Positions 1,046 through 63,174 of a DNA stretch of 64,000 bases are shown here, one piece after another. Numbering within the stretch: position 1 is the stretch's first letter; every line of letters starts with the position of its first letter. The stretch comes from Trachipleistophora hominis (taxonomy: Eukaryota; Microsporidia; Pleistophoridae). Where the stretch lies: positions 147,107-211,106 of the forward strand of contig JH993935.1 in assembly GCA_000316135.1 (NCBI GenBank), in the 5' to 3' direction. Position numbers and translations under genes: made by a program. The notes beneath the pieces were generated by a model. That model was not told the origin of the DNA. It was given only the letters and a program-made list of their open reading frames with translations, and made no database searches.

Positions 1046-2964
1046 TAAAAGACTTAGATAGAGCGATGTTATATGTTCCAACGTATTTTATACCTGAAGT
1101 CTGTATTTAAATATATACTATTACATATACCTATCACATTACTCCTTGGCAGTTGATTGCAAGTATGTCAACCATTCAATTAAAAATAACAATCTATCAA
1201 TATCAGTGTTTAATTAAAAATTGCCATAAATGTTTTTTTAATTATCCACCAATCATCAAGAATGACAGCAACGAAATTATTGCATGTTTAATATACAAGT
1301 CCCTGATCAATAATCTAATATTAGATAAGCCTTCTTACAAGTGATATGTAAATTCATATTTACCATTTAGTAAATTACGCTGTTAGCGGCAGGCAGATTA
1401 TGATGAAATAGTAGTTTAGATACTGCTGTAGTTCAACTTTCAACAAAATGGCTGCCAGCAAATCCATAACAGCAATAACCTTGTTTTTTGTATCAAATTA
1501 ATTATCCGCATTTTTTCTTTTAGCAAGGCTCACTGCTATACAAGAATATTCTTATTTCATCGAATTTACCTCGTGAACGATATTATATGATCAAAATACA
1601 CTTTGTGACTATTTTAAAAAAGTAAATTTAAGCTTAAAGTTATCTAAACTATAATTTTCGTCTATATTTACAGTGTGATATCATTTATTATTTTATATAA
1701 AGGTAATTTACAAATTAATTGATATAAATTTACAAAAAATATTTTACAAGTAACTATATAACTATTCATTGGTTGATTCACATGTGATATGCTATAGTGG
1801 TATGGAAGTGTGATAAATAAATTTAATTTAACATATAAGTATTTATCGATGCCTTATACTATAAATTTAAAGTGTTTGTGCACCTGTATAACAACTATTG
1901 AAGTGCACTTCAGAGGATATAATGGTATGGCTAATCACGAAATTGCTGATAGGTATAAATCATAATATACTCGTTAATCACTGATAATTTTTAAGTATAA
2001 TCAGTGTTATAGCATTCCATTGTTAGTATATCATATCAATTGCAGGCTATTTTGTGATTGATGGCTTTTATAAACATGTAACCAACTTATTTTTTTTCAT
2101 CAAGTGATTTTTAATATGGTTACATATAATTCTTGGCGCTAAAATTTTCTACTAATACATTATCACGTACTTTAGTATCATTATAAGTTTTTACATCTAC
2201 ACTACGTTGTACAGCAATAAAACAGTTGTTTTTGTTTGAAAGTCATTTTAATTAAATCTCCTTGCCACCACATACTAGCAATAAAACAGTAAATAGCTAC
2301 TTGAATTAAACAACTTGGATTGGTGTCAGGATTAAAATAATCAGTTGTGATAGTTTCTTTATAACAGAGAACATAAATTTGGTTAATTACTTACGATCAA
2401 CATATATTCGGCTCAAAATTTTTATTTATTGTTCCTTTAGAAAATTCCTTTTAGGACTTTTTGCATGAAGGCTCAACATATAACACGATACATAACATGA
2501 GATCATTGTTTACACTTTAAAATGGGCAAAACAACTTTTGTTAACGTTTGTATTTTGTCATACATTGGTTGATAAAAAATTACGGTGAGCGTTTTAAGAG
2601 GGGAGTCTACGTAGGCATCTGTGATTTTATATTTCTGTTAAAATGAAGAACTAAAATTGCATTTTTTTTGAAGGTTAATAATGATGTATTGTTTCGTTTT
2701 AACTAATCAACCTGTGGCCTTTCTCTGTATCAGTTTTAATATAGTCAAATTTTAATATGGTTACTTGATTTACTTTACCTTATGTAAGCGGTTTCAGCTG
2801 TATTTCTAGATTTTTCATCGCACATCCGTATGATATCGTATTTAAATATAAAAGAGTAATTTAGTAAAAAATATTACCTAATTATCCATTTTAATTAAGT
2901 TTTGTTCAATATGTTTACGGGTGTGAGGCACAGTGAAACGTAAAATATCATCGTTCATATTAAT
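1046..2964. other. AT-rich intergenic spacer
   Basis: No credible gene in 1.9 kb; open frames are short and lack a CCC/GGG start context. The only structured item is a short retroposon-like element at 2227-2276, listed separately. Confidence 0.5.
2213..2290 (-). mobile_element. Short retroposon, group A, with 14-bp target-site duplication
   Basis: Element body 2227-2276 read on the minus strand: AAGGAGATTTAATTAAAATG followed by ACTTTC and an A-rich tail, matching the 3' half of group A copies elsewhere. It is flanked by a perfect 14-bp direct repeat AGCAATAAAACAGT at 2213-2226 and 2277-2290, as expected of a target-site duplication. No coding capacity. Confidence 0.75.
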
Positions 2965-2972
2965 CCCCACCA

Positions 2973-3530
2973 ATGATCAAAAAAATAATTTTTTTCATCC
3001 AAGAGGCACCTTTTACGGGCACAGAAAAACACAAGGTTGCACAAAGCCGACCAGCAGCACCACCCCGTCCAGACATTACACATCATATTCTTCTTACTAT
3101 CATCGATTCTCCTTTATACAAATCCAATAGATGCAAAATTTACGTTAAAACGGTTAACAACATTTTGATAGAAATAAACGAGGGAACGCGGATACCACGG
3201 ACAACGACAAGATTCGTAGGTCTAATGAAGGATGTCTTACGGAAATTAAAAATAAAAGATGAGGATAAGACGCTCATGCGCGTAGTGAAAAGCAAAATAG
3301 ATTTTCCACCTGGTGCGGTCAAAATTGGCATGTCACGGAAAGGAGAAAGAATCAGCAAGGAACATTTTATAGCCAATGATGTAGTATTATACGTGAATGC
3401 TAAACAACGAGGCGAGGATGTCTTTGATGACGTAGATGTTCTCATGAAGGTTAGCGACTACGAACTGAGTGGTGCGGCAGCTGTCGGAAAAGCCATATTT
3501 TTCATTGAAGATATTCTAAACGTATTTTAA
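2973..3530 (+). CDS. EMG1: Nep1/Emg1 rRNA pseudouridine N1-methyltransferase
   Basis: Matches the SPOUT-class enzyme that methylates a hypermodified pseudouridine in small-subunit rRNA and also helps assemble the 40S subunit in the nucleolus. Family signatures are in order: RPDITHHILLTIIDSPL (about residues 32-48), VKTVNNILIEINEGTRIPRT with RFVGLM (about 58-85), FPPGAVKIGMS (about 112-122) and the C-terminal SDYELSGAAAVGKAIFFIEDIL. At 185 residues it is shorter than the roughly 250-residue yeast protein; what is missing is the N-terminal strand and linker region. The start is supported by CCCC at 2965-2968, 5 nt before the ATG. The neighbouring tRNA and unknown gene give no functional link. 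Confidence 0.93.
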   Translation: MIKKIIFFIQEAPFTGTEKHKVAQSRPAAPPRPDITHHILLTIIDSPLYKSNRCKIYVKTVNNILIEINEGTRIPRTTTRFVGLMKDVLRKLKIKDEDKTLMRVVKSKIDFPPGAVKIGMSRKGERISKEHFIANDVVLYVNAKQRGEDVFDDVDVLMKVSDYELSGAAAVGKAIFFIEDILNVF

Positions 3531-3775
3531 GTAATAAATCTTTATTCATGATTTGTTTTATTTCTATGGTTAGACATGTGATTTGCACATTATTTTAATC
3601 GAAAAGTATATCTGTATAGAGTGATACTGCTACATAACGTTAACATGATATATTTCAGCTCGTTTTAAAACATAATCGGCAATGCCGAGTTTCTTATATG
3701 TTGGTGATTAGATATTCCCATAATTGATATGTTATAATATAACCCATTATAAAACATAATATGTAGCTACATCGA

Positions 3776-3847
3776 TCCGTGATGGTCCAGTGGTTAGGAT
3801 TACGGTCTCTCACACCGTAGGCCCGAGTTCGATTCTCGGTCACGGAA
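3776..3847 (+). tRNA. tRNA-Glu(CUC)
   Basis: A complete 72-nt cloverleaf without intron. Acceptor stem 3776-3782 pairs perfectly with 3840-3846, discriminator A at 3847. Anticodon stem 3802-3806 with 3814-3818 encloses the loop CTCTCAC, anticodon CTC at 3809-3811. T stem CCGAG/CTCGG (3823-3827, 3835-3839) encloses TTCGATT. The internal A and B boxes for RNA polymerase III are intact. It lies 71 bp upstream of the next gene. Confidence 0.97.
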
Positions 3848-3918
3848 ATTTCTTTTGTCAGTTTGATCAGATCAATCATCCAGATTTTGCCCGTATTATT
3901 TAAACAATTTTGTCCCCA

Positions 3919-4230: not shown

Positions 4231-4506
4231 ATCGTAACTTAACGCACACTGTCCAGCTTTTTTAAACGATAATATGTGCGATAACTCGTAGAAAGTACTT
4301 ATCAGCCTATTGAGTGCATATCTGTGCACGTATTTGCACTTTTAGTTTTCTAAACACGATAAAGCGTGTTTGCACGTCTCCTCTTCATATAAGAACAAAA
4401 TTGTATTATACCGCTCTTTTTATTTCTTCACCCGTTACCCAAATGCCTATGTTACTCTCGCTAGCAATCAAATTCTCGTTTCAAAGTTCCTCCCAATTTT
4501 TATCCC

Positions 4507-6410: not shown

Positions 6411-8910
6411 GTGTTGCAGAGAGGGTGCGTCATTATTTTGAAATAATACAGATCGTCATAAAAATAAAAATTGCCGGTTTTGCGTTGTTCATCGGGCACT
6501 TTGGTGCTAATGGCAATTTGTAATGGCTAAACGTGATAAATGGCCAATTTATTAATTTTGGTTGAAACTAAGAATCTGCATTTTAATTTCTACGTAAAGC
6601 TGAATTGACAAAATGAACCAAAGACCGATGGTCATGGTTGGTCCTGTGGACCAGATGAGTAAAATGAATGAGAAACTGACCATGGTTGGTCCTGTGGACC
6701 AGATGAGTAAAATGAATGAGAAACTGACCATGGTTACTTCCAACAGACCAGAAAAGTGCGTTAAAGTGAATAGTGGTGATAAATGAACATGTTTAGTTTA
6801 AAAGTAGTAAAAGACTGATAGTGGTCATCATTCACATTCTTTACCAGGTAACTGCAATACGCATAGTTAAATTCTTCGAATGATTAATTCGTGGTGCTAA
6901 CTGGTAAATACTGATCAGACAATCACAGCATCTATAGAATTAAATTGTTCTGTACGTAACAAATTTGCATATTTTCTTCGTTTTTATATCACATGAGAAT
7001 GAGAACTGCGCTTAAAAGAGGATTGTTATACGTATTACGTATCATTGGGCTTAGAATATTCTTGGCTATATCATCAATATTTTTATCCCGATTGAACGTT
7101 GAACAATGGCCAAAACTATGATAAACAATTACAACGATTCTTTAAATGAACGGCAATTTTCATCAAAACTGTTTATCCCAGCACGTAATTTCCCGAAATA
7201 AACAATAAACTCCCGTTTTTAACACACATCCACATCTAAAGATGATATTAGATGCCAATTTTTTCACTTGTTACTTAATATACCATCATATACGCTATTT
7301 TGACGAAAAGAAACAATTTTGCAGAAGTAATAGTTATTGTAATGGCACTTCTTCAATTGTTTATTAAAAGGCATCATCTTTACGTTTCTTTGCTACAAAT
7401 TTGTGTTGTATCCAACTGTAACCATGTCAAGCTAAGAGAATTATTACTTAAAGTTAAAAATATTTTTAAAAACGTAAAAGCGCTTCTTTCCATCTTTAAC
7501 ACATTATTACTTGAATTTAATTATACAAATATTTAAAATGCTCATTGATATACAACGTATAACACTGTGCTAAAATTTATAGGTAAGACGTGTTATTCAC
7601 ACCAACTTGTCTTAACATATGAAACATTTCTAGCCCGCCTTCTACCATCATAAGTAATTAAATTATTACAGATTGTTAAATAATGAACGTACTATCGTGT
7701 TCGACCCGTGTATTTCTTAGAACACGAACGTTCTCTCTTAAATTGGTTTATTCAATAAAAGAGTAAGCAAAATGCACATGATTGTCTTTTCTTTTGTGTT
7801 AAATGGTTATGTATTAGAAATATTACTGAAAACAATCCATTTATCATATTTAGCTATTTGTTCGTTTAATTATTACCAGAGTATCAATAAATTTAATCTC
7901 ATAGAGCACGTTTAGGATAACAATTTGGTACTTAAACATATTTTTATTAAAAAATGAATAGGTCAACGATCTAATAACGATATGAATAATAAAACAGCGT
8001 CAATTTGATGCAAATATGCTATTTTATCAAGATAAAAATTACGTTCAGCGATTAAACTGCGAGAATAGCAATTTATGGGTAGAATAAGATTAATAGGTAC
8101 CAATTATAGTACAATCATAGATTTAATTATCATGATTTCTTCATTTCTACCTTAAAACGTAATGTCACGATGATAATTGATCTATCCAAACATTTTGTAC
8201 CAATACATTACTTTATACGGTAGATCATTAAAATAAGTGTTAGAATATGTAAATACCACACTTAATACGCTATCATTGATCTATGCTTTAACATAATCCG
8301 TAATAACTGCAAATAACACACTGGTGTTCTTGTGTACGATGGATTTATCGATTATTTGACCGGGTTGCGTAGAATAAGTGTTCTATTTTGTGTTCATTCA
8401 TTTTAAAAGAAAGAAAAACGTAGCACAACGTTTTATAAGGTGGAATTAACAGCAATCGCCTACAATTAACAATCACGCAACTAATACAGACTCATAAGAG
8501 AAATATAAACGAACAGCAGAACTAAAACATCACAAACACGACTCGTATTCTTTTTCGTATGAAAATCGCTGATTGCTAAGTAAAAAGTATCGTGTTAATG
8601 GCTTAACACGAGACATTGTAAAAATTTTGAAAATCGCTGTGATCGTGGAAACACGGCATGCCCTTGTTAAGTCAAAGCGTCTACCTCTTATACGTTAAAG
8701 TAAAATATGTTCATTGAAATGATATCTGCAATCAAAAACAAAGGTACCAGAATGAACGCAGCTCAAACAAAGATAAAACCACGGTTTAATAACAGATTAA
8801 AATTCATATCTTGTACGCATAGGACATTAGGCAACAAGACGATATTAATATTCACCACTAATCCCAATCTTACCACATCACACGTATAGAGAAACTAAGT
8901 TTTTACTCCT
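6411..8910. other. AT-rich intergenic spacer
   Basis: 2.5 kb without a convincing gene. Apart from the 48-bp repeat region near 6613-6786 (listed), open frames at 7300-7536 and 8707-8889 have no CCC/GGG start context and no recognisable content, so they are not called. Confidence 0.5.
6613..6786 (+). repeat. Two-copy 48-bp tandem repeat, degenerate group A element, with a 57-codon ORF
   Basis: Perfect 48-bp units at 6633-6680 and 6681-6728, followed by a third partial copy. Each unit contains the hairpin-forming GGTCC-TGT-GGACC. The region begins with ATGAACCAAAGACCGATGGT, the same 5' end as group A dispersed elements, so it is probably an internally amplified copy. It also encodes an uninterrupted 57-residue reading frame (6613-6786) in which 48 bp gives a 16-residue repeat (MVGPVDQMSKMNEKLT). 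There is no CCC/GGG motif, so expression is doubtful. Confidence 0.7.
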
Positions 8911-14177: not shown

Positions 14178-14273
14178 AGAGCCTTGTTATTTCTTTTTAA
14201 TTAAAAGATAGTTTAATTATATCCTTCATACACTCTACCCAACCAATTCACTCCTCTGATAGAGCCTTGTTAT
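14178..14273 (-). mobile_element. Short retroposon, group A, with 13-bp target-site duplication
   Basis: Body 14191-14260; on the minus strand it ends with GTGTATGAAGGATATAATTA then AACTATC and an A/T-rich tail. Perfect 13-bp direct repeat AGAGCCTTGTTAT at 14178-14190 and 14261-14273. Confidence 0.8.
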
Positions 14274-14479
14274 ACCCCCCAACGAATTTGAAATTTTATA
14301 ATTCTAAGATCATATCATATATTATTATGATTTTATGTCCTGCAACGTCTAATACAAGTAAATATCTCATATATATGTGATATTTGATTGCTTTGCAAAC
14401 TAATAGAACATATCGAATCGAGGCAAAAAATGAATACGTACTTAGTGTAGAAACCAGAGTTTGTTTGATATGTAAGGAA

Positions 14480-14519
14480 GTGTGAGGTGTTAGTTAAACA
14501 AACTTTCAAGCAAAAAAAT
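14480..14519 (+). mobile_element. Short retroposon-like sequence, group B
   Basis: AAGTGTGAGGTGTTAGTTAA followed by ACAAACTTTCAAGC and seven A residues. Nearly identical to the copy at 55257-55302. Possible A-rich duplication GCAAAAAATG near 14424 and 14510; boundaries are uncertain. Confidence 0.55.
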
Positions 14520-18673: not shown

Positions 18674-18754
18674 CGTGTTTACGTGTTTCGTTGAAGAAAC
18701 GTATTTAATTAATTATTCAGTATAACACGTATTTAATATGCGTGTTTACGTGTT
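18674..18754 (-). mobile_element. Short retroposon, group C, with 14-bp target-site duplication
   Basis: Body 18688-18740. Minus strand reads ..AATAATTAATTAAATACGTT then TCTTCAA. Perfect 14-bp direct repeat CGTGTTTACGTGTT at 18674-18687 and 18741-18754. Confidence 0.8.
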
Positions 18755-24141: not shown

Positions 24142-24246
24142 AACGATCTTTACACTGCGTGTTAGATATGTGTTGGGTGGAATGTTGAATTATTAATTAA
24201 ATACGTTTTTCAAAAGAAAATGATTCTTACCAAACGATCTTTACAC
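24142..24246 (+). mobile_element. Short retroposon, group C, with 14-bp target-site duplication
   Basis: Body 24156-24232 with GTGTTGGGTGGAATGTTGAA then TTATTAATTAAATACGTTTTTCAAAAG. Perfect 14-bp direct repeat AACGATCTTTACAC at 24142-24155 and 24233-24246. Confidence 0.8.
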
Positions 24247-26400: not shown

Positions 26401-26486
26401 GCAACAATTAATCTTTTTCATAAAAGTTATTTTAATTATCTCCTTCATACACTCCAACCAACGAGCTCTTCTAGTGCAACAATTAA
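26401..26486 (-). mobile_element. Short retroposon, group A, in the aminopeptidase promoter, 11-bp target-site duplication
   Basis: Body 26412-26475; minus strand reads AGAAGAGCTCGTTGGTTGGA then GTGTATGAAGGAGATAATTAAAATAACTTTT. Perfect 11-bp direct repeat GCAACAATTAA at 26401-26411 and 26476-26486. Its right edge is only 26 bp from the start codon of the next gene. Confidence 0.85.
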
Positions 26487-33431: not shown

Positions 33432-35264
33432 TTCTTAGGGTGTTTTCAACATTTTTTTGATAAAATCGTTTATTGCCGCGTAGACTGAAACAGCATCGTT
33501 TCAGATTGATGGTGATGCGTTTTTATCTTTTGCAGGAATAATGTTCGTTTGGTGGTGTTAGTCTGTGCTATGGCGTATTTTTCTGGATGTTCGAAGTAAA
33601 TATGATAATTAATTATGATAATTGATCCTCGTTAGAATAGGACGAATTTAAACAGTCGATTATATGTACGATCAATATCAATAAAATAGCATATTAAATT
33701 ACAAAGTAATAAAGATTTACTGTGATGTACATCACAGTAAAGAGTTATATTAGATAAATTTAATATGATTAGTCAGAAATAGAAACGTTGTATACGATAA
33801 TGGGAAGAAACTTTGCCTTAGTATTGTAGTACGAATGACAACCTTCTGTTTTTAACTATCTGTTTTTGTATAATTAATGTATTGATAACTATGGGCAAGT
33901 GACAGCATCTACTCTAATGTTCATATAATTTACGAAAGAGTTCGTTATTTGATAGACAAATTTTGTTTTATTAAACTATCATACATTTTCTTTCATTTGC
34001 ACAGGAGAGTATTGATAGAACTTTTTTAGGAAGAACATGTTTAATTACTTACTTATTAATACAGACCTACTAAATACATTGATACTGATGCACTAGCACC
34101 TGTGGCCTAGTCAGCCCTCGTTCCACAAGATTTATTTTTCTACTTTTTTACCTATCGAAATATCAAATGAATTGTGTATAGTGTTATTACTGCTCAATCC
34201 GTATGTTCAACAAATTACTACGAATCGTATGCAGTAACCTGATAGTTAAATTAAATTAGACTTTACTTATTAATTCAGCTTCTTTTAACAACACTGCATC
34301 ATAACCTGTCACGAATATCAACTGCCTATAAAAAAGAATTGGTAAAACTATATAAACAGGAAAACAAGGGCCTTCTATCGCAACCAATTCAATGCCCGGT
34401 AATCACTACAAATGGATGAACATGGCAATACATAATAAAAAACATCAACCAATAACAATTACGATAGACTCAACAAGTCAAGCTATTAAAGTGCATATCA
34501 TAAGAAACGAGGCGGGTATAACCATCATACATGCAAGGCAACGTAGGGCGATTCTCTAGTGAGGGTGCAATTGACCACAGCGTTTAGGTTGGTTACTATG
34601 TGTTATATATTAATTAAAGATTGACCCCTTATGACAGACAAGTCTTACACGATGTTTTTTTGTCAACGATATCTACCACTCAAGATCACTATACGTAAAT
34701 AACTGAAGTGTTGATGAAAAAGGGTCTCTTAACATTCTACGGTACACGAGTGGTATCAACGAACTAGAATTTTTGAAACGATCATACCTTAAATTACGAT
34801 TAGTACCTCGAACTCTTGCTGATAATATTTTTGTAACTTATTTTAACCATAAGAGCATTTAATTGAATAATATTGTTACTTTAAGAGGATACTTTATTTA
34901 ATGTTGACATGAGGTGGTACTACTTTCAACAAATTTATTACATTCTTATTCTAATTATGTAATAAAGATAATGTATCTCATAATTTTAATATTGGTGTTA
35001 CGGATCAAGTGATTAACTTGTAGTGTAGCAGGGATGTTTATTATTTTAATCAAATACAAAAAATAATTAATTCTTCAGAAAATATAACATATGAAAGAAG
35101 AAAACAAGATATTTGGGAAATTAAAGGATATCCTATCAATGGCAGAAACGTGTTCCATGGACCGAGGCTGATGGCCGTTTCCATTCTTACGAACTCTTTA
35201 AGTTCGTGAGATGTAGAAAAATAAATGAACTTATTCTAAAAAAGCAGAGATTTTAAAGCTATGA
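33432..35264. other. AT-rich spacer
   Basis: Mostly featureless. Exceptions: a possible small ORF at 34392-34559 (listed), and a CCCC motif at about 34627-34630 set two bases before an ATG whose frame closes after 23 codons. Confidence 0.45.
34392..34559 (+). CDS. Possible small protein, 55 residues
   Basis: ATG-started frame with coding-like composition (KKHQPITITIDSTSQAIKVH, then RNEAGITIIHARQRRAIL), basic overall, without signal peptide or recognised domain. A GGG lies about 23 nt before the ATG, further than usual. It may be a real small gene or the relic of a larger one; the local GC content is higher than the flanks. Confidence 0.3.
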   Translation: MPGNHYKWMNMAIHNKKHQPITITIDSTSQAIKVHIIRNEAGITIIHARQRRAIL

Positions 35265-35358
35265 GGTTGATGGGTCGTCGGACCAGAAGAGTGTGTTGGA
35301 TTAGGTAGTGTGTATGAAGGAGATAATTAAATTAAATTTTAGTTAAAAAAGGTTGATG
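35265..35358 (+). mobile_element. Short retroposon, group A, with 8-bp target-site duplication
   Basis: Body 35273-35350 begins GGTCGTCGGACCAGAAGAGT and ends with GTGTATGAAGGAGATAATTA, AATTTTAGTT and a run of six A. Direct repeat GGTTGATG at 35265-35272 and 35351-35358. Confidence 0.8.
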
Positions 35359-36415: not shown

Positions 36416-37541
36416 ATAGAAACTGCGATAGTTATTTATTAAACCAAACTTTTTTGGTGTTTTTTACTTACACTTTAATTTAAAGCTGTCAAATGAATGT
36501 TCAGCAGATCATTTAACGATATAAGTAAACAAAATCACTTTTGATTTACCATATTTCGAAGTTTTTGAAATGTATTTATTCGCTATTTTCAAGCTGATTC
36601 GTTTCACAAATATGTTCGTGATTACAAATTAAAAATGTCGGCAATAGACTAAATATATTCTTTTTTAAACGTTTGTAAACTAAATTTTATGGTAAAGCAT
36701 CAATTATGAATGTGATAAAAGAGTGATTGGTTGTTGAATTCAATACCTTCTGGCCTAACTGGAGCTACGATGGTATTGACTCGATCAAACTGCAGAACTA
36801 AAAGATACAGTAACGAAACAATTTACAACCATAACATTAGATAATTAAAATCCACCACAGCATGTATGATATGTAATCGTTTATTAAAATATAAATTATT
36901 ATTTTAGTACCTCTGAAGTGAATCAAAGGCTGAACAGGCTGTGTTAGGTGGTAACATACCAGTAAAAGCATGTTAAATAGGTGTTAAGTAGAATGTTGAA
37001 TTATTGGTCAAATATGTGTCTTCAAAAAAAGAATGATTATTAAATATAATTTAAGTGAACCAAACTGCAAAATGTAGGTTAAATTTGTGATTTCAATGTA
37101 GAAAAAAATAAAGTATATTTCAATCAATAATAAATGTTACTTATGAGGCAATGATAAGAGTTCAACACAATTACTTTTGATATATATCATAGGTAATGCA
37201 ATTATTTTTGGGATTGTCTCATATTGGCTACCAATTGATGCTTTTATTACGAATAAATTATGAGAACATGACTAAAAAATAGTAATTGTTGATCATATGT
37301 GTTGTAATGCAAATTAACAAATGGTTAAAAAACAATTTGAATAAAACTTAAAGACTAGTTTTAGATTTATCTATTGCAGTAAAGTAATCGCGTATTTATA
37401 ATATTATAATTGGAAAATGGTCATAACCGAACGAATAAAATAGGTGTTATAATAAAGGTAAAACTTTAGTATAGCCAAAAGAATGAGTTTTTGAAATCAT
37501 TTTCTCAGTAAATAAGCCATACATTCAACGCAGCAACCAAT
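36416..37541. other. AT-rich spacer between gene and pseudogene copy
   Basis: No gene seen. A group C-like retroposon lies at 36972-37030. Confidence 0.5.
36972..37030 (+). mobile_element. Short retroposon, group C
   Basis: TTAAATAGGTGTTAAGTAGA then ATGTTGAATTATTGGTCAAATATGTGTCTTC (in part) and seven A. Only a weak candidate duplication (AAAAGCATG/AAAAGAATG). Confidence 0.6.
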
Positions 37542-38438: not shown

Positions 38439-40258
38439 GTCGCTGAGCTTTTCGATGCTTTTATAGCCAAGGTTTAATTTACTGCTGACAGCTGATGATC
38501 GTTGCAAATGACGCTTTCGTGATTTATGATTAGTGACCTGGGCGAATGATTACACAAAAAAGATGTTAGTGTTATAATAGATAAGCATTGCCGCCCTCTT
38601 CTTTTTTCTTTGAATATTTACCTGGTACTACAGTGTTCAAAACAAGTATATTCAGTTGTAAGCAAACATTTACAACATTATAATGTATTCATACAATTTA
38701 AAGTGTTAAAAAGAGTTCTAATTTGTGTAATATGAATGTTTTACTATATTTCAATCGAGTAAATGTTAAAACGAATGTTTTATTTTTCATGGTAATAAAC
38801 GTCTTATAGTTACTAAAATTTAAATGTGACACGTTTTAGAATATCAAGATTATTAAAATGAATTTGAAATTCTAGACATCGAAATAATTACGTAATCTTG
38901 ACATATCCAAATCATGAAATCGCACAAATACCATATTTCACGCCCCTTCACTCGTCTTCTAATATAAATACCCAATATATTAGGTAGATTAGTTTTCAAT
39001 AAATGTCCTTGTATTTTTTTACTAAAAATTTATTTATTTACCATATCACCTCGCACAAGCTTTTATGGTCCGCTAAGACCAACCATGACCACCGGTTTTT
39101 GGTTCATGAACGAGATGTCATTGTATTGTAAGAGAAGAGCCGCTTAAATTCTTTTCAAAAATTTTACCAAGAAAAAATCGTATTTTCAATGTTCCACAGA
39201 TTACTTACATGTATTATAATTTTTTAATCCGAAAACACCTTTTTCAGGTATTATTGATAGTTTAGCATCTAGTTGGCAATTCATGAACATTTATTGACAT
39301 TTTTAATTGAGACTTCGTCCGAACAACAGTCTATTTAAGATATATTAGGTAACATTTGGTTGAAAAATGAACATTTTTATTGATTATGGTATATCTTGGC
39401 AAAATAGAACAGATAACCATTTTTGTCAATATACAAGCCATAATGAACTATAAAACAAAACAATAGTTAGTAATTCTAGCCATCAATACTTGTTTTGAAT
39501 TATAAATCGATATTTGTCTGTATAAAACACGGTTTATATCAAAGTCGTGTTATGTATATCTGATAACTCACAAATACATGCTATTCTTTAAAGTTAAAAT
39601 TTGAAATAAATTTATAACGTAATGACTATATTCAGCATATTTTTGATATCCTTGATAATATATACAACAACAATTTATAGCGGAGTACCAATACATGCAA
39701 CATCATATACTGGCCTATAAAATTATTTATTTCTATTACAGTCTCATACAAACTTTTATGCTATCGTATAATCTATTGAATTAATTTGTTGTACTTTTAA
39801 GTACGAGGTGCATCACGTAAGGCCAAGCTATTCCTATGCTAAAGAATGGTAACTTATCTGCGCAATTGTCTGATCTTAATAATATTGTTCTATTATGAAT
39901 AAGGTTTGTTGGATGTTCTACACTGAACTGCGACAGAATTGGTGATAAAGTTTGATACAGTCTACTCTATCGAATATGTCAAGCGTTGAACGACCAAAAT
40001 TGATTTTTTAACAGCGGTCAAGACGACGAAGAAAGCGAATTAGATTCTCTAAGTAATATAAGACGATAGTTCATGGCATTAAGTGCCATTTAATCACAGA
40101 AAACGAGCATTCAATACTGATGTGCTCGTGTTAGTTGAATATTAAACCACGAGAAATAGAGATTAAACTACCTATCCGCATCAAAACAATGTTTTAAAAG
40201 ATACACCACAGATCGTATTCATGAACATTAAATAAAATTTATTTAAATATCACCCTGC
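38439..40258. other. AT-rich spacer
   Basis: No gene called. Contains the upstream open frame and GGG-ATG context of the membrane-protein gene (to about 38600) and a 5' fragment of a group A element at about 39061-39110. Confidence 0.45.
39061..39110 (-). mobile_element. 5' part of a group A retroposon
   Basis: Minus strand: TTCATGAACCAAAAACCGGT then GGTCATGGTTGGTCTTAGCGGACC. Same 5' sequence as copies at 6613 and 62969; the 3' half is missing and no duplication was found. Confidence 0.6.
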
Positions 40259-42517: not shown

Positions 42518-45170
42518 CGTTGTAAGATTTATAATTGTTAATAAATCTTATTATTCTAAAAATAAATGAATCTCCTTCTAATAACAGTAATACAGAAGTT
42601 ACCAATGTAATAGTATATTCATGTAGTATCTTGTTAAAATTCTAAATTGTTATTTTACCAAAAAAAATGCTTCAAAGTATTATATTAACAAGAGTACGTA
42701 CATATTGCTGTTAAATGTGAATTAATAACTTAAATCTTACGAAGTTGGGAGGTTTAATTTATTGATCAATTGAAGTTGGTTGTTACAAGTAATAAGCTAT
42801 TAAGGCTTGTGAGAGATTGTAAGATTTAATAGCAGTGCACAATCATGGTATTTACCTCCATATTAAATTGTGATTTAGTACTAATATAGCAAAAAATAAC
42901 ATCATTTTCACAGCGTGTTAAACATGACCGTATTCCTACGTGTTGAAGATGAAAATATATTTTATAACATCAATACGTGTTGTACCGTAAAGAATGATTT
43001 AATTAAAATGGGAGTGAAATACTAATTTTTAAAAAATACAATTACTTAAAAGGGATATTTCACTGGTTGACATGAGAGGATAATAGTTTTATAGTTTTTT
43101 TTTGAAGAAACGTATTTAACTAATAATTCAACGTTCACCCAACACCTATTTAACAAGTTTTATAGTTTTAATAAAAATTTTTGTCAAACTTTAGAGAATA
43201 TGAACCGCTGGTAAATAACGTAACTTGTTTTATATGACGACCTTGATTGCAAATTATATTTACACGCAGTAAACAGGTTAAATAATAAACTATCTTTTAC
43301 GTCTACTTATCAATATATTCACTGTATTTAACAGTGTTGGAGCTGAAAGTTCGTTATATATAAAATTATCGTTTATGAGTGTGTATTGCTGTTAATAAAA
43401 CTCTTTATTGAATTGTAAATCAGTTATGGTTATTTACGATGGTTAAGATTTCATAATACGAATTTTCTGGGCATCTGAATGGCGTAATAGTTCTTATTGC
43501 TATAAATATTTTCGTACGAATACGTTCTGGTAAAATGAACATTAAACATATCTAAATGATGGTCATAAGAACATTTTATGCCAAAAATGTGAAGAATTAT
43601 TGATTATCTGTCAATACAGTGACGCATACAAAGATATAAAACGCTTAGAATAGTAAAAAGATTTAGGAAACGATTAAATAATTACAAAGAACAGTATCCT
43701 TGTCGTTTAAAATTTAAATAATTCATCGTGCCTAACATTTTCAAGTGGTAGCAAAAATAATAACCGTATTAGGCAGTTTTCAGAAAATTTATTTAACCAA
43801 AGTCTATCATACCAACTAAGTACAGTGGAGAGAGAACAAAATAGAATGCGTGAATGCTTATTCGTCTCATAGATGTAATAAAACAGAATCAATTGCTATT
43901 AATAAGTGGGTATAATACTTACACAAATCACACTTTTATTTTTTAAAATAATTAAAATGCCGATTTCGTCATGCTATCAACGACATCTTTGACATCCCCA
44001 CTCTTTTCCTTTCTTTGTTTTCCAAGAAAAGCTACCAAAAGGGAATTTCTGAAAAGAAAAGTGTTATTTTTTGGATTAGAGGTTTCTAGGGTTAACCAGT
44101 GGTATACTGCATGTTTAGAAAAATAGCAAAAATCGGTTGATGAGTCTGCGTCGTACCACTATTTTGGTCAAACTAATTAAAATAAAAACATTAATATTAA
44201 TTTTCTCTATTCAAATGGGTGAACTGTTGTTTTTATGGTTCATTAAACCAAATACTTTAATTACTAACATTATTCACCTCAATAAAAATCCAAACCAACA
44301 ATGAGCAACAAAAGATCTACCAATTGTTAGGATCGCAATTCGTCGGTAAATACGTCAACACACAACACGAACAATATCTAAGATCAATACTAACAAAATG
44401 TATGTTGATGTCTACTCTTTGAAACTATTCCTAGATATATTGACATTTAAGTCGTCTTCCTTGGGTTAGGTTCAATTATGCTTGGTTCCAGTATTTTCTA
44501 ATATCCAAAAGTCGTATGAAAGTATTTATCGTTCCTCTCCAATCAAGATAATAAAATAGCGTAGGTAGCTCATCGGGTACAAGACTAGAATTTTGAGATC
44601 AGGTCGGTCGCATTTTATCTTGCCATTGCACCCTCTTCGACCTCTTTGACAGTAATCGCGATACACCCGGCCATCTTGTCCTCTTTAACACTTTAGAATT
44701 GATTTTACCGGCTTCGATGATGCACATTTACTGTCATCGTTTACTGAACTGTGATTTTTTGAACATGTAGTTGGGTGCTTTTTCTTAAGTCAAAATGAAT
44801 TATTGCTCCACTTCGATTTGCTTTTTAATTGATTTTTAAAATAACTTTCAAGAAAAGTAGAAAGTTGTTTCTTATGGTTGAATGTACCACAACCGTAATT
44901 GGGCATATCTCCTTGAAAACGTGTAAATACTTCTTCAATTTTTTTTCATTTTTAAATCCAGTCCGGAAGTGTTGGATGGCCGTGTTCGTGTAAGATCTCG
45001 GTTGCTGGTTTCTTCTGTCGTTTGGGTAACTTTATAGTTTGATTCTGCTGAATACGTATTATATCTTACATTGTTATGGTATTTACGGTCATTGACAATT
45101 ATAGATTCACATCATTGGCTCTTTTCATACGTTTTTTTGACTAAAAGAGTTTTATTTAAAAATCTGGTGA
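42518..45170. other. AT-rich spacer, with GC-richer relic sequence at its right end
   Basis: No intact gene. A group C retroposon lies at 43085-43169. The part from about 44560 to 45010 is less AT-rich and on the minus strand yields short coding-like stretches (for example KRTRWPGVSRLLSKRSKRVQ) in broken frames, suggesting a decayed gene or transposon. Confidence 0.4.
43085..43169 (-). mobile_element. Short retroposon, group C, with 14-bp target-site duplication
   Basis: Body 43099-43155; plus strand shows TTGAAGAAACGTATTTAACT then AATAATTCAACGTTCACCCAACACC. Perfect 14-bp direct repeat AGTTTTATAGTTTT at 43085-43098 and 43156-43169. Confidence 0.8.
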
Positions 45171-45868
45171 CTAACCTTCCATCTTATTATCATCATCGTT
45201 TAAATCATCTCCTGCCTCTTCATTGTCAACAGCAAAAATAACAAATTTCCTTTCTGGCCCGCTAGGGCTTCAACTATGGTTACCGGCCTTCGGTTCATGG
45301 TTTTCATACGTAGTATTTGATTTTTCTTCCATAAAACATCGATTTTGGTCGCAATTGGTTTTTTTACCATCTACATTCCGTTCATCTTCAACATGTTCGG
45401 GATTCTTTTTTTCATGAGCTTCCGACTTACTATTTTTAAATGTCTGTTTGCCCAAATTCTGTACTAATGGCTGGTCAAGATTAGCATATTTTTTTGTAAC
45501 GAACGTATTACCAAGTGATTCCAAGCCATTTTATTTGTGTGATAATATATGAATTGCAGATTTTTCCGTTACTGTATCATTTTTCAATATGGTAGTTTTT
45601 TCGCTATTTACATCGAAGGTTTGTGTTTCATCACACACTATGACGAAACACGGACACTTATCGGAACACGAGGACGAATGCACTGACATCGCCCTATATG
45701 ATGAAATATAGGCATTGTTCGGATTAAAACCAGTGATATCTTCTTCATTTTCTGTTGTTCTCTCTGGCTGATCATGATCAACATCGGAAATTCATCTCCC
45801 GTACATCTTCGTGGGACCTTTACAACCATGATTCGTCTGATAAGCAATAACAATACGAGATACATCAT
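45171..45868 (-). pseudogene. Pseudogene of a predicted secreted protein
   Basis: The ATG at 45868 follows a CCC motif by four bases and begins a signal-peptide-like segment (MMYLVLLLLIRRIMVV). After about 28 codons the coding character moves to another frame (PERTTENEEDITGFNPNNAY), consistent with a one-base indel; that frame then runs to 45171 interrupted by an internal TAA (after HILSHK) and an internal TGA (after AGNHS). The full relic would be about 230 residues, hydrophilic, acidic at its end (DDLNDDDNK). Next to an intact secreted-protein gene on the other strand, without visible homology. The stretch around 45245-45300 matches the 5' part of group A dispersed elements. Confidence 0.75.
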
Positions 45869-48129: not shown

Positions 48130-49328
48130 CGTGTGCTTTACTTTTTTGTTATGCAAGTGTGAGAAGATGGAACGAGTCTGTTATTGTTCCAGTTCCCAAG
48201 ACGAGAGATCTGAATCTAACTACAGAAGAATTTCATTCAATGGTACACTTCATAAAATGGTGACAAAGATTGGTGTTGATAGGCCGTATGCATCTTGGAG
48301 CGTGAAAAAATCTTAACTCACGAGCAATCCGAGTTCAAAAAGCCGGGGGAGTAGGTTACACACGTAATCTGTCTGTACGAGATATAGAGACAGTGCAGCC
48401 TATGGAATAGAGCAACACACACGATCCTCCTGAACTTATCGAAGGCTTTTCTTGAAGAAACATGGTTAGTTAATAATTCAACATTCCATTCAACACCTAC
48501 TTAAAGACGCATAGCAGAAAGATCTGCTTGCCAAGCTGAAGTTATACAGATTTTATGACGAGCTACTTCGTCTTTCCACAGCCTTAAACAGGCGCCTGTG
48601 CGGACTGGTGAACCGTCTTCAGCTTCGGTCGTGCACAATATAGGTATTAGACAGGGATGCTCAGCATCATCGATCCTGTTTGATCTATAGATCAATGACT
48701 TGTTCAACAACCTCAGCCGAGTCGTAATGCAGCCAAGCGTACGACCTATTACCGGCTTGCTGTTTGCCGACGATATTGTTATACTTGCAGAGTTAATTCA
48801 CGAGTTAAAGAGAAACTTACAGAATATAAGCGATTGGTGCGGACGGTGGAGGATGTTTGTGAACATCAACAAGTGCGGAACAACGGTATTTGACTTGGAA
48901 AAAGTACGCGGGATATGTTAGAGAGAGCAACCTCTCCAAACTGTAGATATTTACGCCGTGAAATACTGACCATGCAACTAGGAACAATCTGGACAGTTAA
49001 GTTCAGAATGTTTGAGAGAAAAGCGTGTCCTGGGATGTGGTAACCAATTTCAAGTGTGTAAATTTTGTTTATTTTTACCATCTTGGAAGATGGCCATCAC
49101 AAATTCAGCATTTACAATAGATGGACAGCATTCGTTGAAACGCGTCTTAGCGCATTTATTACGGCTAGTTGGATACGGCGCAATCGCTCCAATTTATGTA
49201 AAAAATGTTCATTATGCCAAACGAAACAGAGAAAAATCCCATGGCATTCCTTATGGGAATATGAAAGATGGTTCAAATAGAGAACGAGGTTCCATAGCCT
49301 GGTGATAAATTGCTAGAAACTATCATCC
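48130..49328 (+). mobile_element. Degenerate non-LTR retrotransposon (LINE) reverse-transcriptase fragment
   Basis: Broken frames give the ordered motifs of a non-LTR reverse transcriptase: RWNESVIVPVPKTRDLN (about 48165), NYRRISF, LTHEQSEF, NLSKAF (about 48430-48447), GIRQGCSASSILFDL followed by a TAG where Y is expected and INDLFNNL (48650-48710), FADDIVILAE (catalytic YADD box, about 48760), DWCGRWRMFVNINKCG, and a C-terminal CKKCSLC...H zinc-finger-like motif (about 49195-49240). Several stops and frameshifts plus a nested group C element show it is dead. The right end runs into the assembly gap. Confidence 0.88.
48449..48505 (-). mobile_element. Group C retroposon nested in the reverse-transcriptase relic
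   Basis: Plus strand CTTGAAGAAACATGGTTAGT then TAATAATTCAACATTCCATTCAACACC. It falls right after the NLSKAF motif, splitting the domain. No clear duplication found. Confidence 0.65.
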
Positions 49329-50288
49329 NNNNNNNNNNNNNNNNNNNNNNNNNNNNNNNNNNNNNNNNNNNNNNNNNNNNNNNNNNNNNNNNNNNNNNNN
49401 NNNNNNNNNNNNNNNNNNNNNNNNNNNNNNNNNNNNNNNNNNNNNNNNNNNNNNNNNNNNNNNNNNNNNNNNNNNNNNNNNNNNNNNNNNNNNNNNNNNN
49501 NNNNNNNNNNNNNNNNNNNNNNNNNNNNNNNNNNNNNNNNNNNNNNNNNNNNNNNNNNNNNNNNNNNNNNNNNNNNNNNNNNNNNNNNNNNNNNNNNNNN
49601 NNNNNNNNNNNNNNNNNNNNNNNNNNNNNNNNNNNNNNNNNNNNNNNNNNNNNNNNNNNNNNNNNNNNNNNNNNNNNNNNNNNNNNNNNNNNNNNNNNNN
49701 NNNNNNNNNNNNNNNNNNNNNNNNNNNNNNNNNNNNNNNNNNNNNNNNNNNNNNNNNNNNNNNNNNNNNNNNNNNNNNNNNNNNNNNNNNNNNNNNNNNN
49801 NNNNNNNNNNNNNNNNNNNNNNNNNNNNNNNNNNNNNNNNNNNNNNNNNNNNNNNNNNNNNNNNNNNNNNNNNNNNNNNNNNNNNNNNNNNNNNNNNNNN
49901 NNNNNNNNNNNNNNNNNNNNNNNNNNNNNNNNNNNNNNNNNNNNNNNNNNNNNNNNNNNNNNNNNNNNNNNNNNNNNNNNNNNNNNNNNNNNNNNNNNNN
50001 NNNNNNNNNNNNNNNNNNNNNNNNNNNNNNNNNNNNNNNNNNNNNNNNNNNNNNNNNNNNNNNNNNNNNNNNNNNNNNNNNNNNNNNNNNNNNNNNNNNN
50101 NNNNNNNNNNNNNNNNNNNNNNNNNNNNNNNNNNNNNNNNNNNNNNNNNNNNNNNNNNNNNNNNNNNNNNNNNNNNNNNNNNNNNNNNNNNNNNNNNNNN
50201 NNNNNNNNNNNNNNNNNNNNNNNNNNNNNNNNNNNNNNNNNNNNNNNNNNNNNNNNNNNNNNNNNNNNNNNNNNNNNNNNNNNNNNNN
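49329..50288. other. Assembly gap of 960 undetermined bases
   Basis: All N. It begins inside the retrotransposon relic, so unresolved repeats are the likely cause. Nothing can be said of its content; open frames through it are artefacts. Confidence 0.99.
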
Positions 50289-54311: not shown

Positions 54312-55242
54312 ATACACTGCTGAATATAAACCATACGTCAGTGCATCACGGTGTATAATACGAGTTACGATTAAACTGCGTTTTTATGATAACATTCCTT
54401 TTTTAAAAAATATGTTTTTATTGCCATACATCTCATGATAAACGTCCTTTACTCAGTTATTACACCGACCCTGCGTCTAGCGTAGTACTCGTTTAAAATA
54501 ACTGCAAAGCTGATCAATGTACGATCTTTATACTGTGTCTATGGTTTACCATCAAAGTTTTTCATTGTTTCTTCTAAATTATTACCCCCACGTCAACATT
54601 AAATCATATATCCATCCCATGACATCTTTAATTCTTCTTCTTAATAATTTTAATCTTAGGTTACTCGTTAATACGGTGTACATCCTATTACCTCTTTTTT
54701 ATCCTGTATAAGGTATAAATTAGAAAATCTTTAAATCGAGTAATATTTATAACACGGGTATATCTCAAACAGCAAACCAATCAAATACTACTTTTACGTA
54801 TGAACTGAACTTATTTTATTAAAAATACGTTTAACTATCACCTTATAATAAATTGGTTGCCTTGCTTTGATAATCTTTGTTTACTGACGTGTATTTTAGT
54901 ATACCGATAGGATATACGATGTATTGATAAGAAGGCCGAAAGCTTCTCAATCTACATTAGATAATGCTTGTTAATAGAACTGTTTCTACATTACCAGAGC
55001 TGTTAAGTTATTATTTATAACAGCTCATTTATATTTTACTAATAATACTCTACGTATTAAAACTAAAAGTTTACTTAACTTACGTTTGTTAATAAGTTCA
55101 CGTATTTCTTTATTTTACCTTCTTGGTAATATTTACTCGTTGTGCTGCAAGTGCTAAGAATCAACAGCAGTTAAAGATACGATCGATGCTTAACACGTCA
55201 TTAAAGTTGCTTAGATGAATCGAGGAGGATGATGTGTTTAAT

Positions 55243-55316
55243 TAAACGAAATTTAAGGGAAGAAGTGTGAGGTGTTAATTAAACAGACTTTCAAGCAAGA
55301 AATAAACGAACTTTAA
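55243..55316 (+). mobile_element. Short retroposon, group B, with imperfect 14-bp duplication
   Basis: Body 55257-55302: GGGAAGAAGTGTGAGGTGTT then AATTAAACAGACTTTCAAGCAAGAAA. Flanks TAAACGAAATTTAA (55243-55256) and TAAACGAACTTTAA (55303-55316) differ at one base. Confidence 0.7.
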
Positions 55317-59753: not shown

Positions 59754-61435
59754 GGTTGAGATTTTAACTAAAATCGATCGAGTAGTGATAATTAAAGGCG
59801 TTGTTTACATGTGAGTATCAATCTTGGTAATAATATACGATTAAGTATTTTAATTTATTATAATTGGTGATTTATTGCAACTGAGACCAATAATTTAGTT
59901 GATATTAATACTGTTATTACGTTTAGAAATAATATTTTGATTTAGAATATACGACAAAGGATAATATCACATTGAGAAGTAAAAAAGCCTTTTAAACCCT
60001 CATAATGATAATTTAACAAAAAATATACGACTTATCTGCCATAAGGGGAATCGTTAATCATAATAAAAAATACAAAATGGAGAGGCTGCATTTAGACGTA
60101 AAATACGATCTAATAGTTGTTAGAAAAGGATATGCATACTTAAAACTTAATAATTTACCTCCTAACTACAATTTTGACTAAAAGGGAAATTAAATGCACG
60201 GTATTATCGTTAATATTTCTGTTCTTTCCTGTTGTTCAATTTTTCGTTAAAAGGGGTTTTACAGTTGAAAGCGCTTCATCCTCAAAATATTGACTAATAA
60301 TCCATTTTTATTTTGTTTCACTGTCATAAAACACTTTTATGTTAATTAGCACAATCTCATGTGTTTGCGCGCCAATTCTTTATCAGTGTGTATGAGAGTT
60401 GTTTGCAATAAAATTAGGTACCCATTCGAATAATTACTGTTGAGATGCACTCAGTTGTCTTTTATCTTAAGATTGGTTAGATCAAGATTACGCTTATCGT
60501 AACGCTACAGCACGTCCATCGTTCTAAATACGGTCTATTCTAACCTGATGATCAACAAAATAATGACGTATTTTACGACAAAACTTTTCATTTTTACTGT
60601 GGATATTGTTCTATCGTTATTTCTCAGCTACTCACACATCACCAATCTAGTTTGAATTACTAACTACTCACTACTCTATATTCTACGCTAGGACGTTTTC
60701 GAGAAATAAGAATGATTTTGAGGCCATAATTTTACCAGCTTTGCAAAACGGCACGTATTATAAACACCTCTTTATAAGTTTCAAATATTCACCTTTCCTA
60801 TGTGCCATAAATCATACACTTGTGTTTGCAGCAAAACAATGCATGTGATCAAAACAAATTAACTCTTCTCACATTTTGACAACAACTTTCTGAATTTTTT
60901 TAATGAAAGCCATTTAATTAACTCTTTTCACATTTTGACAACAACGTTTTGAATTCTTAACACGAATAGTACACACGTTTTTTAAAAAATTGAGAAATTG
61001 ATTTTTGTTGCAGTGTGCGAAGGTGGAGAGGATTAAATAAACTTATTTTTATTAATAAACAATTGAAAAATTAATTAAAAAATTCTACCTACAAAAACTC
61101 TGTATGTGTCATTAACAGCTCGAAGTCTTTAGATAAGTCTGTTTAATTACTTTTCCCACTGCCTGCTTATTCAAACAAACCTTCCTGACGCTCTCTGTAC
61201 CTACCGTAGTTCTGGTCATTGATTCAAAGCTAATCAACTCAAATACTTGATATTTATTATCACGCTTGTACAAAAAACCTAAATATTCTTGATGGTTTGT
61301 TAAATTATAACCTCTCACGTTCTATTTCTTTCTGATGACAATCTGTTCATTTAATCCTTTTAACCTTCGCACACTACAACTCTCACGTTCTATTATTCAT
61401 TCAAAAGAAAAAACCAAATTTTTTTTGCCCACAGA
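59754..61435. other. AT-rich spacer with an inverted repeat pair
   Basis: No firm gene. Contains a 34-codon ATG frame at 60077-60181 preceded by GGGG 27 nt upstream; a two-copy 59-bp repeat (AATTAACTCTTCTCACATTT at 60857 and its variant at 60916); and imperfect 30-bp inverted repeats at 61013-61042 and 61345-61374 (26 of 30 match) that bracket a minus-strand open frame 61112-61318, which has no ATG at its start. Confidence 0.5.
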
Positions 61436-61630: not shown

Positions 61631-61656
61631 AATGTTTATTTACGGCTTTCTACGTC

Positions 61657-62091
61657 TTATGCAGTGCCGATTTCATGTTTAAGTGGCACCTTTATGTAAA
61701 ACTTACTTAGCACGACAAGCACATGTCCCTGAACGGCGTTTACCTCATATTCTTGTACGATGTGGAACTTAAATTTAAGGCGTGTTGTGCTATCACCGGC
61801 TATTCGTGTGCCCTTAAACATGCGGTTTTTATGTATGGCACCTGATAGCTCAGCAACGTTCAGTTGCAGCCTAAGATCGTTCAAATATACGTCAAATGGC
61901 GTATCATTGCATACGCTTACGCGTGTTTCTATGTACCCGTCCACTATGTCGATCGAAGCGATTTCTATTACCACGTTTTTCAGAATGTACACCATAAAGC
62001 ATACCACATACACGAATACGAGCAGTAAGAGCGCTATGGCAATTTTTAAGAATTTCTTGTTATTTTTGAAGAGCAGCAGCAGAAATAGCAT
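61657..62091 (-). CDS. Single-pass membrane protein with LEA2-like domain
   Basis: 144 residues. One strong membrane helix at about 14-36 (FLKIAIALLLLVFVYVVCFMVYIL) acts as signal anchor, followed by a beta-rich domain: IEIASIDIVDGYIETRVSVC, then NDTPFDVYLNDLRLQLNV and TRLKFKFHI, with the alternating pattern and NxxPF motif typical of LEA2/WHy domains. Such anchored LEA2 domains in fungi are found on vacuolar or plasma membranes. This is a pattern-based inference. No CCC/GGG run lies just before the ATG. Convergent with RRP17 at 26 bp, sharing the short 3' region. Confidence 0.7.
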   Translation of the reverse strand: MLFLLLLFKNNKKFLKIAIALLLLVFVYVVCFMVYILKNVVIEIASIDIVDGYIETRVSVCNDTPFDVYLNDLRLQLNVAELSGAIHKNRMFKGTRIAGDSTTRLKFKFHIVQEYEVNAVQGHVLVVLSKFYIKVPLKHEIGTA

Positions 62092-62273
62092 CGCAGATTG
62101 GCACTGTTTGTTTTTAAGAAATTAATTTGTGATGATAAATTGCGATCAGCAGTATGGCAACGATAAATAGACGTGTTTTATATTTATTACCTTGGTTGGG
62201 TGTATACATCGATTGCTGTTGCTACCACATGCTTTTCATAACTAAACTGTAATTCCACTAATCTTGGTAATAT

Positions 62274-62415
62274 TACCGTATTTTGTTACGATTCCGCCAC
62301 ATGTATCGGAAGCAAAATCTCATTTACGGCACAATGCTTTAATGTACCGTATTTTGTTACGATTCCGCCACATGTATCGGAAGCAAAATCTCATTTACGG
62401 CACAATGCTTTAATA
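62274..62415. repeat. 71-bp tandem duplication
   Basis: Units 62274-62344 and 62345-62415 (TACCGTATTTTGTTACGATT... to GCTTTAAT) are identical except at the last base, so the duplication is recent. Confidence 0.95.
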
Positions 62416-62955
62416 TTGGTGGTGTAATTTATATTAGCTCCATGTTTTTATTTTTATTGTATGTGAATAAAAAAACGTGTGGCCTTTTGTATTTCTTATT
62501 TCACGTTGCATGTTAATAATAAATGTGGACTTGGTAGATTAATGTAACATGTTAAAAGATTAATTGGTTTTAGAGTTAAAAATGTTCTTGCTAATATGTT
62601 ATATTACAATACTATTGCTATGATATGCGTTCTATATTTTTATTTAAAAAGGTTTACCTAAAAATTTGAACTTCTAAAGTCGCATTTAAATCCTCTAACA
62701 ATGTTTGCCAAAACTCTATTAACGCTCCTTTCATTATATTTATTCCTAGAAATGCTATTATTTATCAATATACGTACTTTACAACAAAATTATCCTCTGG
62801 TATTACGCATTTGATATAACAACCGGTCATCTTCTAAGAATAAAGACATCATGTTAAACCTCTCCTACGCAGGAAGGGACAATCAAGAAAAGTATATTCC
62901 TTGATAAATAAAGTGGCGTTATTATCAACATCCACATAAATGCAACATGTTAATA

Positions 62956-63174
62956 CCATCCTTATTCAATGAACCAAATGCTGGTGGTCATGGTCTGTCC
63001 TAGCAGATCAGAAGAGCGTGTTTGGTCAGGTATTGTGTATGAAGGAGATAATTAAATTGACTTTTGATTATAAAATGGGTAGGGTGTACAGCGGATCAGA
63101 AAAGCGTGTTTGGTCAGGTATTGTGTATGAAGGAGATAATTAAACTAACTGTTAAAAAAAACTGCCATCCTTAT
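62956..63174 (+). mobile_element. Near full-length group A retroposon, partly duplicated, with 10-bp duplication
   Basis: Begins ATGAACCAAATGCTGGTGGT at 62969. Two copies of the 3' half (GATCAGAAGAGCGTGTTTGG... to GGAGATAATTAAA) follow in tandem at 63006-63060 and 63093-63145, the second ending in GTTAAAAAAAACTG. Flanking direct repeat CCATCCTTAT at 62956-62965 and 63165-63174 (13 bp with one mismatch). The first copy holds a 28-codon frame 62969-63055 ending VYEGDN. Confidence 0.85.

Follow-up and report, generated by a model that had tools for sequence, protein, structure and literature searches.

The window analysed here is a stretch of 64,000 nucleotides (nt) from the microsporidian Trachipleistophora hominis, positions 147107-211106 of contig C45 in an assembly of 5.5 Mb and 119 contigs. 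It carries eukaryotic genes for an MCM protein with an MCM6 domain, phosphatidylserine decarboxylase, N-myristoyltransferase, actin and Rcd1, and 19 copies of a short dispersed element that are detected by hidden Markov models (HMMs). None of these copies overlaps the gene set, which consists of 18 open reading frames (ORFs) and one tRNA gene, occupies 25% of the window and includes several ORFs without a domain match; their distance to the nearest listed ORF ranges from 36 bp to several kb. We consider, with a probability of about 0.8, that the elements are non-autonomous retroposons derived from a long interspersed nuclear element (LINE) and made by target-primed reverse transcription (TPRT). 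The copies in the window are listed in Table 1.

Table 1. Retroposon copies and the LINE relic in the window. Positions count from the first nucleotide of the window; unit nt, part of the ~110-nt unit that is present; TSD, target-site duplication; RT, reverse transcriptase.
Feature	Position	Strand	Details
Subfamily D copy, unit nt 59-108	2213..2290	-	14-bp TSDs 2213-2226, 2277-2290; matches D unit of C12:38601, E 1.7e-4; missed by A/B/C HMM scan
Two old partial C units, 6613-6660 and 6725-6783	6613..6783	+	HMM
C copy, unit nt 41-107	14178..14273	-	13-bp TSDs 14178-14190, 14261-14273
A copy, unit nt 49-110	14455..14516	+	HMM scan
B copy, unit nt 51-110	18674..18754	-	14-bp TSDs 18674-18687, 18741-18754
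B copy, unit nt 50-112	24142..24246	+	14-bp TSDs 24142-24155, 24233-24246
C copy, unit nt 39-106	26401..26486	-	11-bp TSDs; just upstream of M18 peptidase ORF at 26513
Diverged B unit, near full length, nt 4-114	34023..34125	-	HMM scan
C copy, unit nt 25-107	35265..35358	+	8-9 bp TSDs
B unit, near full length, nt 4-115	36919..37030	+	HMM scan
C unit, near full length, nt 2-106	39017..39108	-	HMM scan
B copy, unit nt 54-115	43085..43169	-	14-bp TSDs 43085-43098, 43156-43169
Diverged C unit, matched nt 1-95	45195..45300	-	HMM scan
Broken LINE relic with RT pieces	48168..49328	+	48168-48445 69%, 48519-48949 73% identical to C111 LINE; remainder to N run judged by eye
B copy nested in LINE relic	48447..48504	-	HMM scan
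Diverged A unit, nt 4-100, directly before 55243 copy	55157..55254	+	HMM scan
A copy, unit nt 67-110	55243..55316	+	14-bp TSDs, one mismatch
Diverged A unit, nt 3-99	61135..61227	-	HMM scan
C dimer: 62968-63070 (nt 2-104) and 63088-63160 (nt 34-106)	62956..63174	+	one pair of 10-bp TSDs

A unit of about 110 nt and its subfamilies

An earlier note, made from the sequence of the window alone, had described nine very short elements in three groups, A, B and C, said to differ upstream, to have a 3' end in common and to be flanked by direct repeats. All nine pairs of target-site duplications (TSDs) are present, exact over 14, 13, 14, 14, 11, 8, 14 and 10 bp in eight cases and 14 bp long with one mismatch at 55243/55303. 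The bodies are as short as had been noted (46-78 bp), with 199 bp for a dimer at 62966-63164, and the common 3' end, TTAATTAAA, appears once the copies are oriented, with the variants TAATTAAA in C copies and TTAGTTAAA at 43085. Three copies have an altered form of the CTTTT/CTTTC/GTTTC box that belongs to this end: 24142, 35265 and, in its second unit, 62956. The 3' ends of groups A to D have the core TTAATTAA in common, which resembles a LIM-homeobox site. The upstream difference did not survive as a difference in kind: full-length consensus sequences of A (111 nt), B (115 nt) and C (108 nt) each begin CCATGAACCAA, all three start with the common CCATGAACC, and they have a hairpin in common. 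A, B, C and a fourth group D, represented by the copy at 2213, are subfamilies of one unit of ~110 nt with a covarying hairpin. In two dimers a near-full-length unit is joined to a 5'-truncated one of the same orientation; the first lies at 62966-63164 of the window, enclosed by a single TSD pair, and the second at 3523-3716 of locus L041 on contig C107.

The elements are dispersed through the assembly. There are at least 41 matches to a 71-nt C query, at least 30 to a 61-nt B query and at least 25 to a 60-nt A query. A 22-mer of the C core, allowing three mismatches, occurs at 73 and 72 places on the two strands compared with none on either strand for the reversed pattern, and the common 5' 14-mer, with at most one mismatch, at 70 and 75 places compared with 1 and 0. 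The sequence that we read amounts to 309,066 bases in 77 pieces, or 5.6% of the assembly, mostly centred on query matches; it comprises flanked matches (30 of the 41 for C, 30 of 30 for B and 25 of 25 for A), reverse transcriptase (RT) loci and the window. In this sequence 156 copies (70 C, 43 A and 43 B) were detected with HMMs of full-length A, B and C, 58 of them outside the window and apart from the query matches, in 239,586 bases. Extrapolated to the whole assembly, this amounts to 1,333 or 1,661 copies; the estimate is rough, since sampling was centred on matches. In the sampled flanking sequence the retroposon share is ~2%.

For the 5' halves of 45 full-length copies, RNAalifold predicted two hairpins. 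The structure as written pairs in 87.4% of 580 cells, compared with 26-43% when it is slid along the alignment, and both sides have changed in 40 cells compared with 18.8 in shuffles. The second hairpin (helix 3) is the strongest, with 29 of these 40 cells in five pairs and 45 sequences; UA is replaced by CG in 11 sequences at one of its pairs, and 15 both-side changes occur at the next. Some 65-70 nt separate the covarying stem-loop from the 3' end, and it is missing from many inserted copies. Two further pairings were set aside. An outer helix CCAU/AUGG is weak, being 82% paired, and by eye most A copies have an A-C mismatch in it. In some C copies AACCAAA (nt 6-12) could be paired by eye with UUUGGUU further downstream, a pairing that is absent from the A, B and C consensus sequences.

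Target-site duplications and the link to a LINE

TSDs were searched in a narrow zone at both ends of each copy and scored as length minus 3 per mismatch, using the 142 of 156 copies that have a nearly complete 3' end and flanks, with shuffled pairings of left and right flanks as control. A score of at least 9 was reached by 52 of the 142 copies and by 14 of 849 shuffled pairings. Since tandem arrays yield repeats of another origin, copies with a same-strand neighbour within 250 bp were then dropped, and among the 117 isolated copies the proportion was 41/117 compared with 13/927; at a score of at least 11 it was 29/117 compared with 1/927. A looser test for exact repeats of at least 10 bp found them in 25 of 85 fetched query copies where 1.8 were expected. 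The check that the earlier note had proposed, whether dispersed copies are bracketed by direct repeats, thus came out well above chance, with most copies nevertheless lacking them. Tandem arrays consisting of a truncated A unit plus flank lie at C87:169988-170125 and C51:77655-77834, and a C copy at C104:15998 is preceded by a short tandem repeat similar to them.

One insertion can be read directly. At C16:21285 a B copy (unit nt 63 onward) is nested in a C unit, of which nt 9-19 are duplicated exactly and nt 6-19 with one mismatch; when the flanks are joined, the C unit is continuous across the junction, with other small gaps further on. This nested copy acts as an internal empty site. A second candidate, a B copy nested in the LINE on C111, was rejected, as its joined flanks align on one side only. 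We make no claim of an A-rich nick site from the 36 of 52 TSDs that start with A, because the A-tail lets the repeat run into A's.

Nine RT stretches were found in the assembly, seven of which belong to one LINE whose relics were also found by DNA comparison (20 pieces). The other matches, at C108 (locus L031) and C16 (L034), were set aside; they are broken Ty3/gypsy-like elements with RT, judged by eye from their other frames, those of L031 also including integrase-like ones. The earlier note had asked whether any longer copy continues into an RT ORF, and this is the case on C111, C107, C21 and C12, where a C unit is preceded, on its own strand, by RT remnants; on C96 it is preceded by the LINE C-terminus. 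In four of these five copies, 5-6 nt separate the end of the LINE ORF from the C unit; C12 has no stop at this place. The C unit is the 3' untranslated region (UTR) of a broken LINE. For subfamily A the linkage is suggested by similarity in two copies, with no RT domain seen: the A units at C56 and C91 have 87 bp upstream in common, in which a frame looks by eye like the LINE C-terminus, and 8 nt lie between its stop codon and the unit. By similarity, seven copies were flagged as LINE-linked, C107 twice; the flag on C4:20624 is spurious, a TSD lying directly at nt -1. A tree built from 56 near-full-length units places the seven called LINE-linked among free A and C units and shows B as a separate clade.

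None of six LINE copies (C111, C107, C12, C21, C96 and the window) has an intact RT ORF, all showing stops, frame changes or missing parts; the protein searches with LINE pieces used open pieces only. In the window, a run of 960 N at 49329-50288 removes the 3' end of the relic. Because the copies examined are broken, the LINE/retroposon system may be extinct. The pieces seen cover the RT and the C-terminal part, where ~85 amino acids follow a Cys-His motif, which looks too short for a restriction-like endonuclease. Part of one frame of locus L038 matches a named T. hominis RT protein in every letter, and the broken copies agree with the frameshifts reported in T. hominis retrotransposons without long terminal repeats (non-LTR elements; PMC3486916).

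TPRT, the mechanism that the earlier note had proposed, is indicated jointly by the TSDs, the linkage to the LINE and a 3' end rich in A.

The 5' end and the template RNA

The earlier note took the elements for SINE-like copies (SINE, short interspersed nuclear element) or drastically 5'-truncated LINE ends. Their LINE origin stands, and random truncation alone is not supported: among 135 copies not flagged as LINE-linked, homology starts at nt 1-6 of the unit in 61 (including C56 and C91, later counted as LINE-linked), at nt 7-33 in 15 and at nt 34 or beyond in 59. Starts at nt 1-6 occur in all three subfamilies (A 19/42, B 18/42, C 24/51). The ends defined by TSDs, which do not depend solely on the reference start, give the same picture, with 13 of 41 isolated copies ending at nt -2 to 3, one at nt 4-26 and 24 at nt 27-73; the remaining three end 4-12 nt upstream of the unit, at nt -4 and -12. 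For a further upstream case, an A copy on C95 at nt -9 in the array-inclusive set, a longer mismatched TSD ending at nt 1 is possible by eye. TSD-defined bodies measure 93-115 nt in 14 full-length copies and 32-90 nt (median 60) in 33 truncated ones. The copies are not simply random 5' truncations, and from the 61 of 135 starts at nt 1-6 and the 13 of 41 ends at nt -2 to 3 it follows that most of the short bodies represent, in truncated form, a short unit whose 5' end is precise.

We lean slightly towards the view that the templates of most full-length copies were discrete short RNAs starting at the 5' end of the unit, rather than full LINE mRNAs. In such a mechanism the LINE reverse transcriptase would start at the 3' end, from TTAATTAAA to the A-tail, after a LINE protein had presumably recognized the hairpin or the tail. 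Copying could then stop early, in the 3' half or near the hairpin, and leave 3'-part copies, or it could run through the hairpin domain as far as CCATGAACC, the fixed end, which lies 5-8 nt beyond the LINE stop codon. The end of the template would be the best explanation for a stop on the far side of a structured domain. The short RNA might arise from a start site of its own, by self-cleavage or by arrest of an exonuclease at the structure. A strong stop at the hairpin was considered for the end at nt 1 and rejected, because the 3' arms, and not the far side, are where an enzyme coming in from the 3' side should halt; it explains at most part of the class ending at nt 27-73.

The alternatives at this step differ in the template that was copied. 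Plain 5' truncation, in which all copies result from random drop-off of the RT on full-length LINE mRNA, seems unlikely. It would fit the ends at nt 27-73, which are spread without a sharp peak, the existence of LINE-linked copies, and the position of LINE 3' UTRs among the units in the tree. It fits poorly with the 14 of 48 TSD-defined ends between nt -2 and 75, arrays included, that fall in one 6-nt window (p ~1e-5 if uniform), with the single isolated end at nt 4-26 among 41, and with the gap further upstream: besides the three isolated ends 4-12 nt upstream, none was seen between the unit start and the LINE-linked copies (homology of at least 87 bp upstream; B has no LINE sequence for comparison). 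We also find it improbable that a full LINE mRNA served as template and the RT ran into a ribosome at the LINE stop codon, the cDNA ending 5-8 nt downstream. Such a roadblock agrees with those LINE-linked copies in which the stop codon is preserved, their unit starting 5-6 nt (C) or 8 nt (A) past it, and it would account for A and C lineages sharing a boundary yet grouping with their own LINEs in the tree. It requires, however, that the same RNA be translated and reverse transcribed simultaneously. Moreover, a eukaryotic ribosome with a stop codon in its A site covers ~9-10 nt beyond it, and the observed end is therefore 2-4 nt too close.

Classical SINEs with an RNA polymerase III (Pol III) promoter and a 3' end in common with a LINE would likewise be short, dispersed, flanked by TSDs and fixed at the 5' end. 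They are a poor candidate here: in the A, B and C consensus sequences no A or B box was better than in 500 shuffled sequences, and no Rfam match at E<=1 was obtained for the three copies scanned (one A, one B and one C), in which therefore no relation to tRNA, 5S or 7SL RNA is seen. Conserved regulatory or terminator sequences at fixed places relative to genes are scarcely credible, even with one copy 36 bp before the M18 peptidase ORF and 34 species-specific upstream motifs reported in T. hominis (PMC3486916), given the equal strands (73/72), the TSDs, the nested insertion and the scatter of the 19 window copies around the nearest listed ORFs.

With a LINE 3' UTR lacking a tRNA, 5S or 7SL head as template, the elements are most likely 'headless' SINE-like retroposons. 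Several results weigh against this account. Among isolated copies, 76 of 117 have no TSD scoring at least 9, the repeat having either decayed or never been present, and of the seven LINE-flagged copies only the spurious one on C4 has a TSD of at least 8, C56 and C91 scoring 4 and 5. For subfamilies B and D, the 309 kb read, itself a sample of the 5.5 Mb mostly centred on query matches, showed no LINE, and support within the tree is poor, 3 of its 53 inner branches being well supported. Two of five covariation measures are not above shuffles (8 against 8.0 pairs with a both-side change and 24 against 22.1 further pair types), and two single C units fold no better than shuffled sequences (z -0.68 and 0.44). 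The discrete template is itself an inference.

A bolder and doubtful proposal is that the LINE 3' UTR is a self-releasing RNA, in which a new self-cleaving or exonuclease-stopping 5' fold without an Rfam match frees a 110-nt RNA at CCATGAACC from any LINE transcript, the freed RNA being the true mobile unit. If true, this RNA would be a promoterless SINE that is remade from each LINE lineage. How a LINE 3' UTR on its own turns into a mobile unit is a general question that the precise 5' end makes testable.

Related retroposons and neighbouring sequence

In the way they work, the elements resemble a SINE and, in part, a truncated LINE, yet they fail one defining feature of each, having no Pol III head and no random spread of 5' ends. 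Within a known retroposon class they are an unusual variant of very small size. Truncated LINE copies likewise have the LINE 3' end and TSDs, and are continuous with an RT ORF in rare long copies; such 5'-truncated LINEs are dead-on-arrival copies. Here, in contrast, 61 of 135 copies have, by homology, a fixed 5' end where the 3' UTR begins, and intermediate lengths are almost absent. SINEs whose 3' tail is also that of a stringent-type LINE, such as UnaL2/ZfL2, are likewise short, flanked by TSDs and provided with a LINE 3' end, with a stem-loop in the LINE 3' region (PMC4176376). The present elements differ from these in that no Pol III head was found and the whole body is LINE 3' UTR, and in the position of the stem-loop, ~65-70 nt from the 3' end and missing from many copies.

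In trypanosomatids, the RIME/SIDER elements are likewise short, degenerate, LINE-related families of a unicellular parasite. They are described with the Pr77 sequence and a hepatitis delta virus-like ribozyme (PMC4035085), their 5' ends have 77 nt in common (PMC8190864), and SIDERs have been called extinct (PMC8190864, PMC2689281). The present elements differ in that it is the LINE 3' UTR and not the 5' end that is shared, and the three copies scanned gave no Rfam match. Among microsporidia, a repeat table for N. bombycis lists 28,669 bp labelled SINE along with a Dong-R4 LINE, the SINE entry being a table line without a description in the part concerned (PMC3614468). For T. hominis, non-LTR retrotransposons are treated in PMC3486916, which covers transposon ORFs, RepeatModeler runs and upstream motifs, and in the sections of which considered here retroposons of this kind are not described; like the LINE examined here, its elements are frameshifted. 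It also reports Dicer and Argonaute in this species. No description of a SINE family of T. hominis was found in the literature searched, supplementary Tables S4-S6 of PMC3486916 lying outside the search.

The retroposons add a component to a microsporidian genome whose intergenic DNA has, in the published parts considered, been described mainly via motifs and ORFs. Their TSDs are usable as phylogenetic markers between strains. Some of the species-specific upstream motifs, notably a Lim1-like one, could be retroposon tails, given the likeness of TTAATTAA to a LIM-homeobox site. Such a Lim1-like motif is reported upstream of T. hominis genes (PMC3486916).

Two observations concern sequence beside the LINE relics. 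Those on C111 (L040), C107 (L041) and C12 (L036) lie shortly downstream of leucine-rich-repeat-like ORFs; C111 and C107 represent one duplicated segment (94% identical), and the C12 ORF is a different paralogue. In the window, an ORF of 375 amino acids at 46882-48006 has a hydrophobic start and no Pfam match, and its product is possibly a secreted microsporidian protein.

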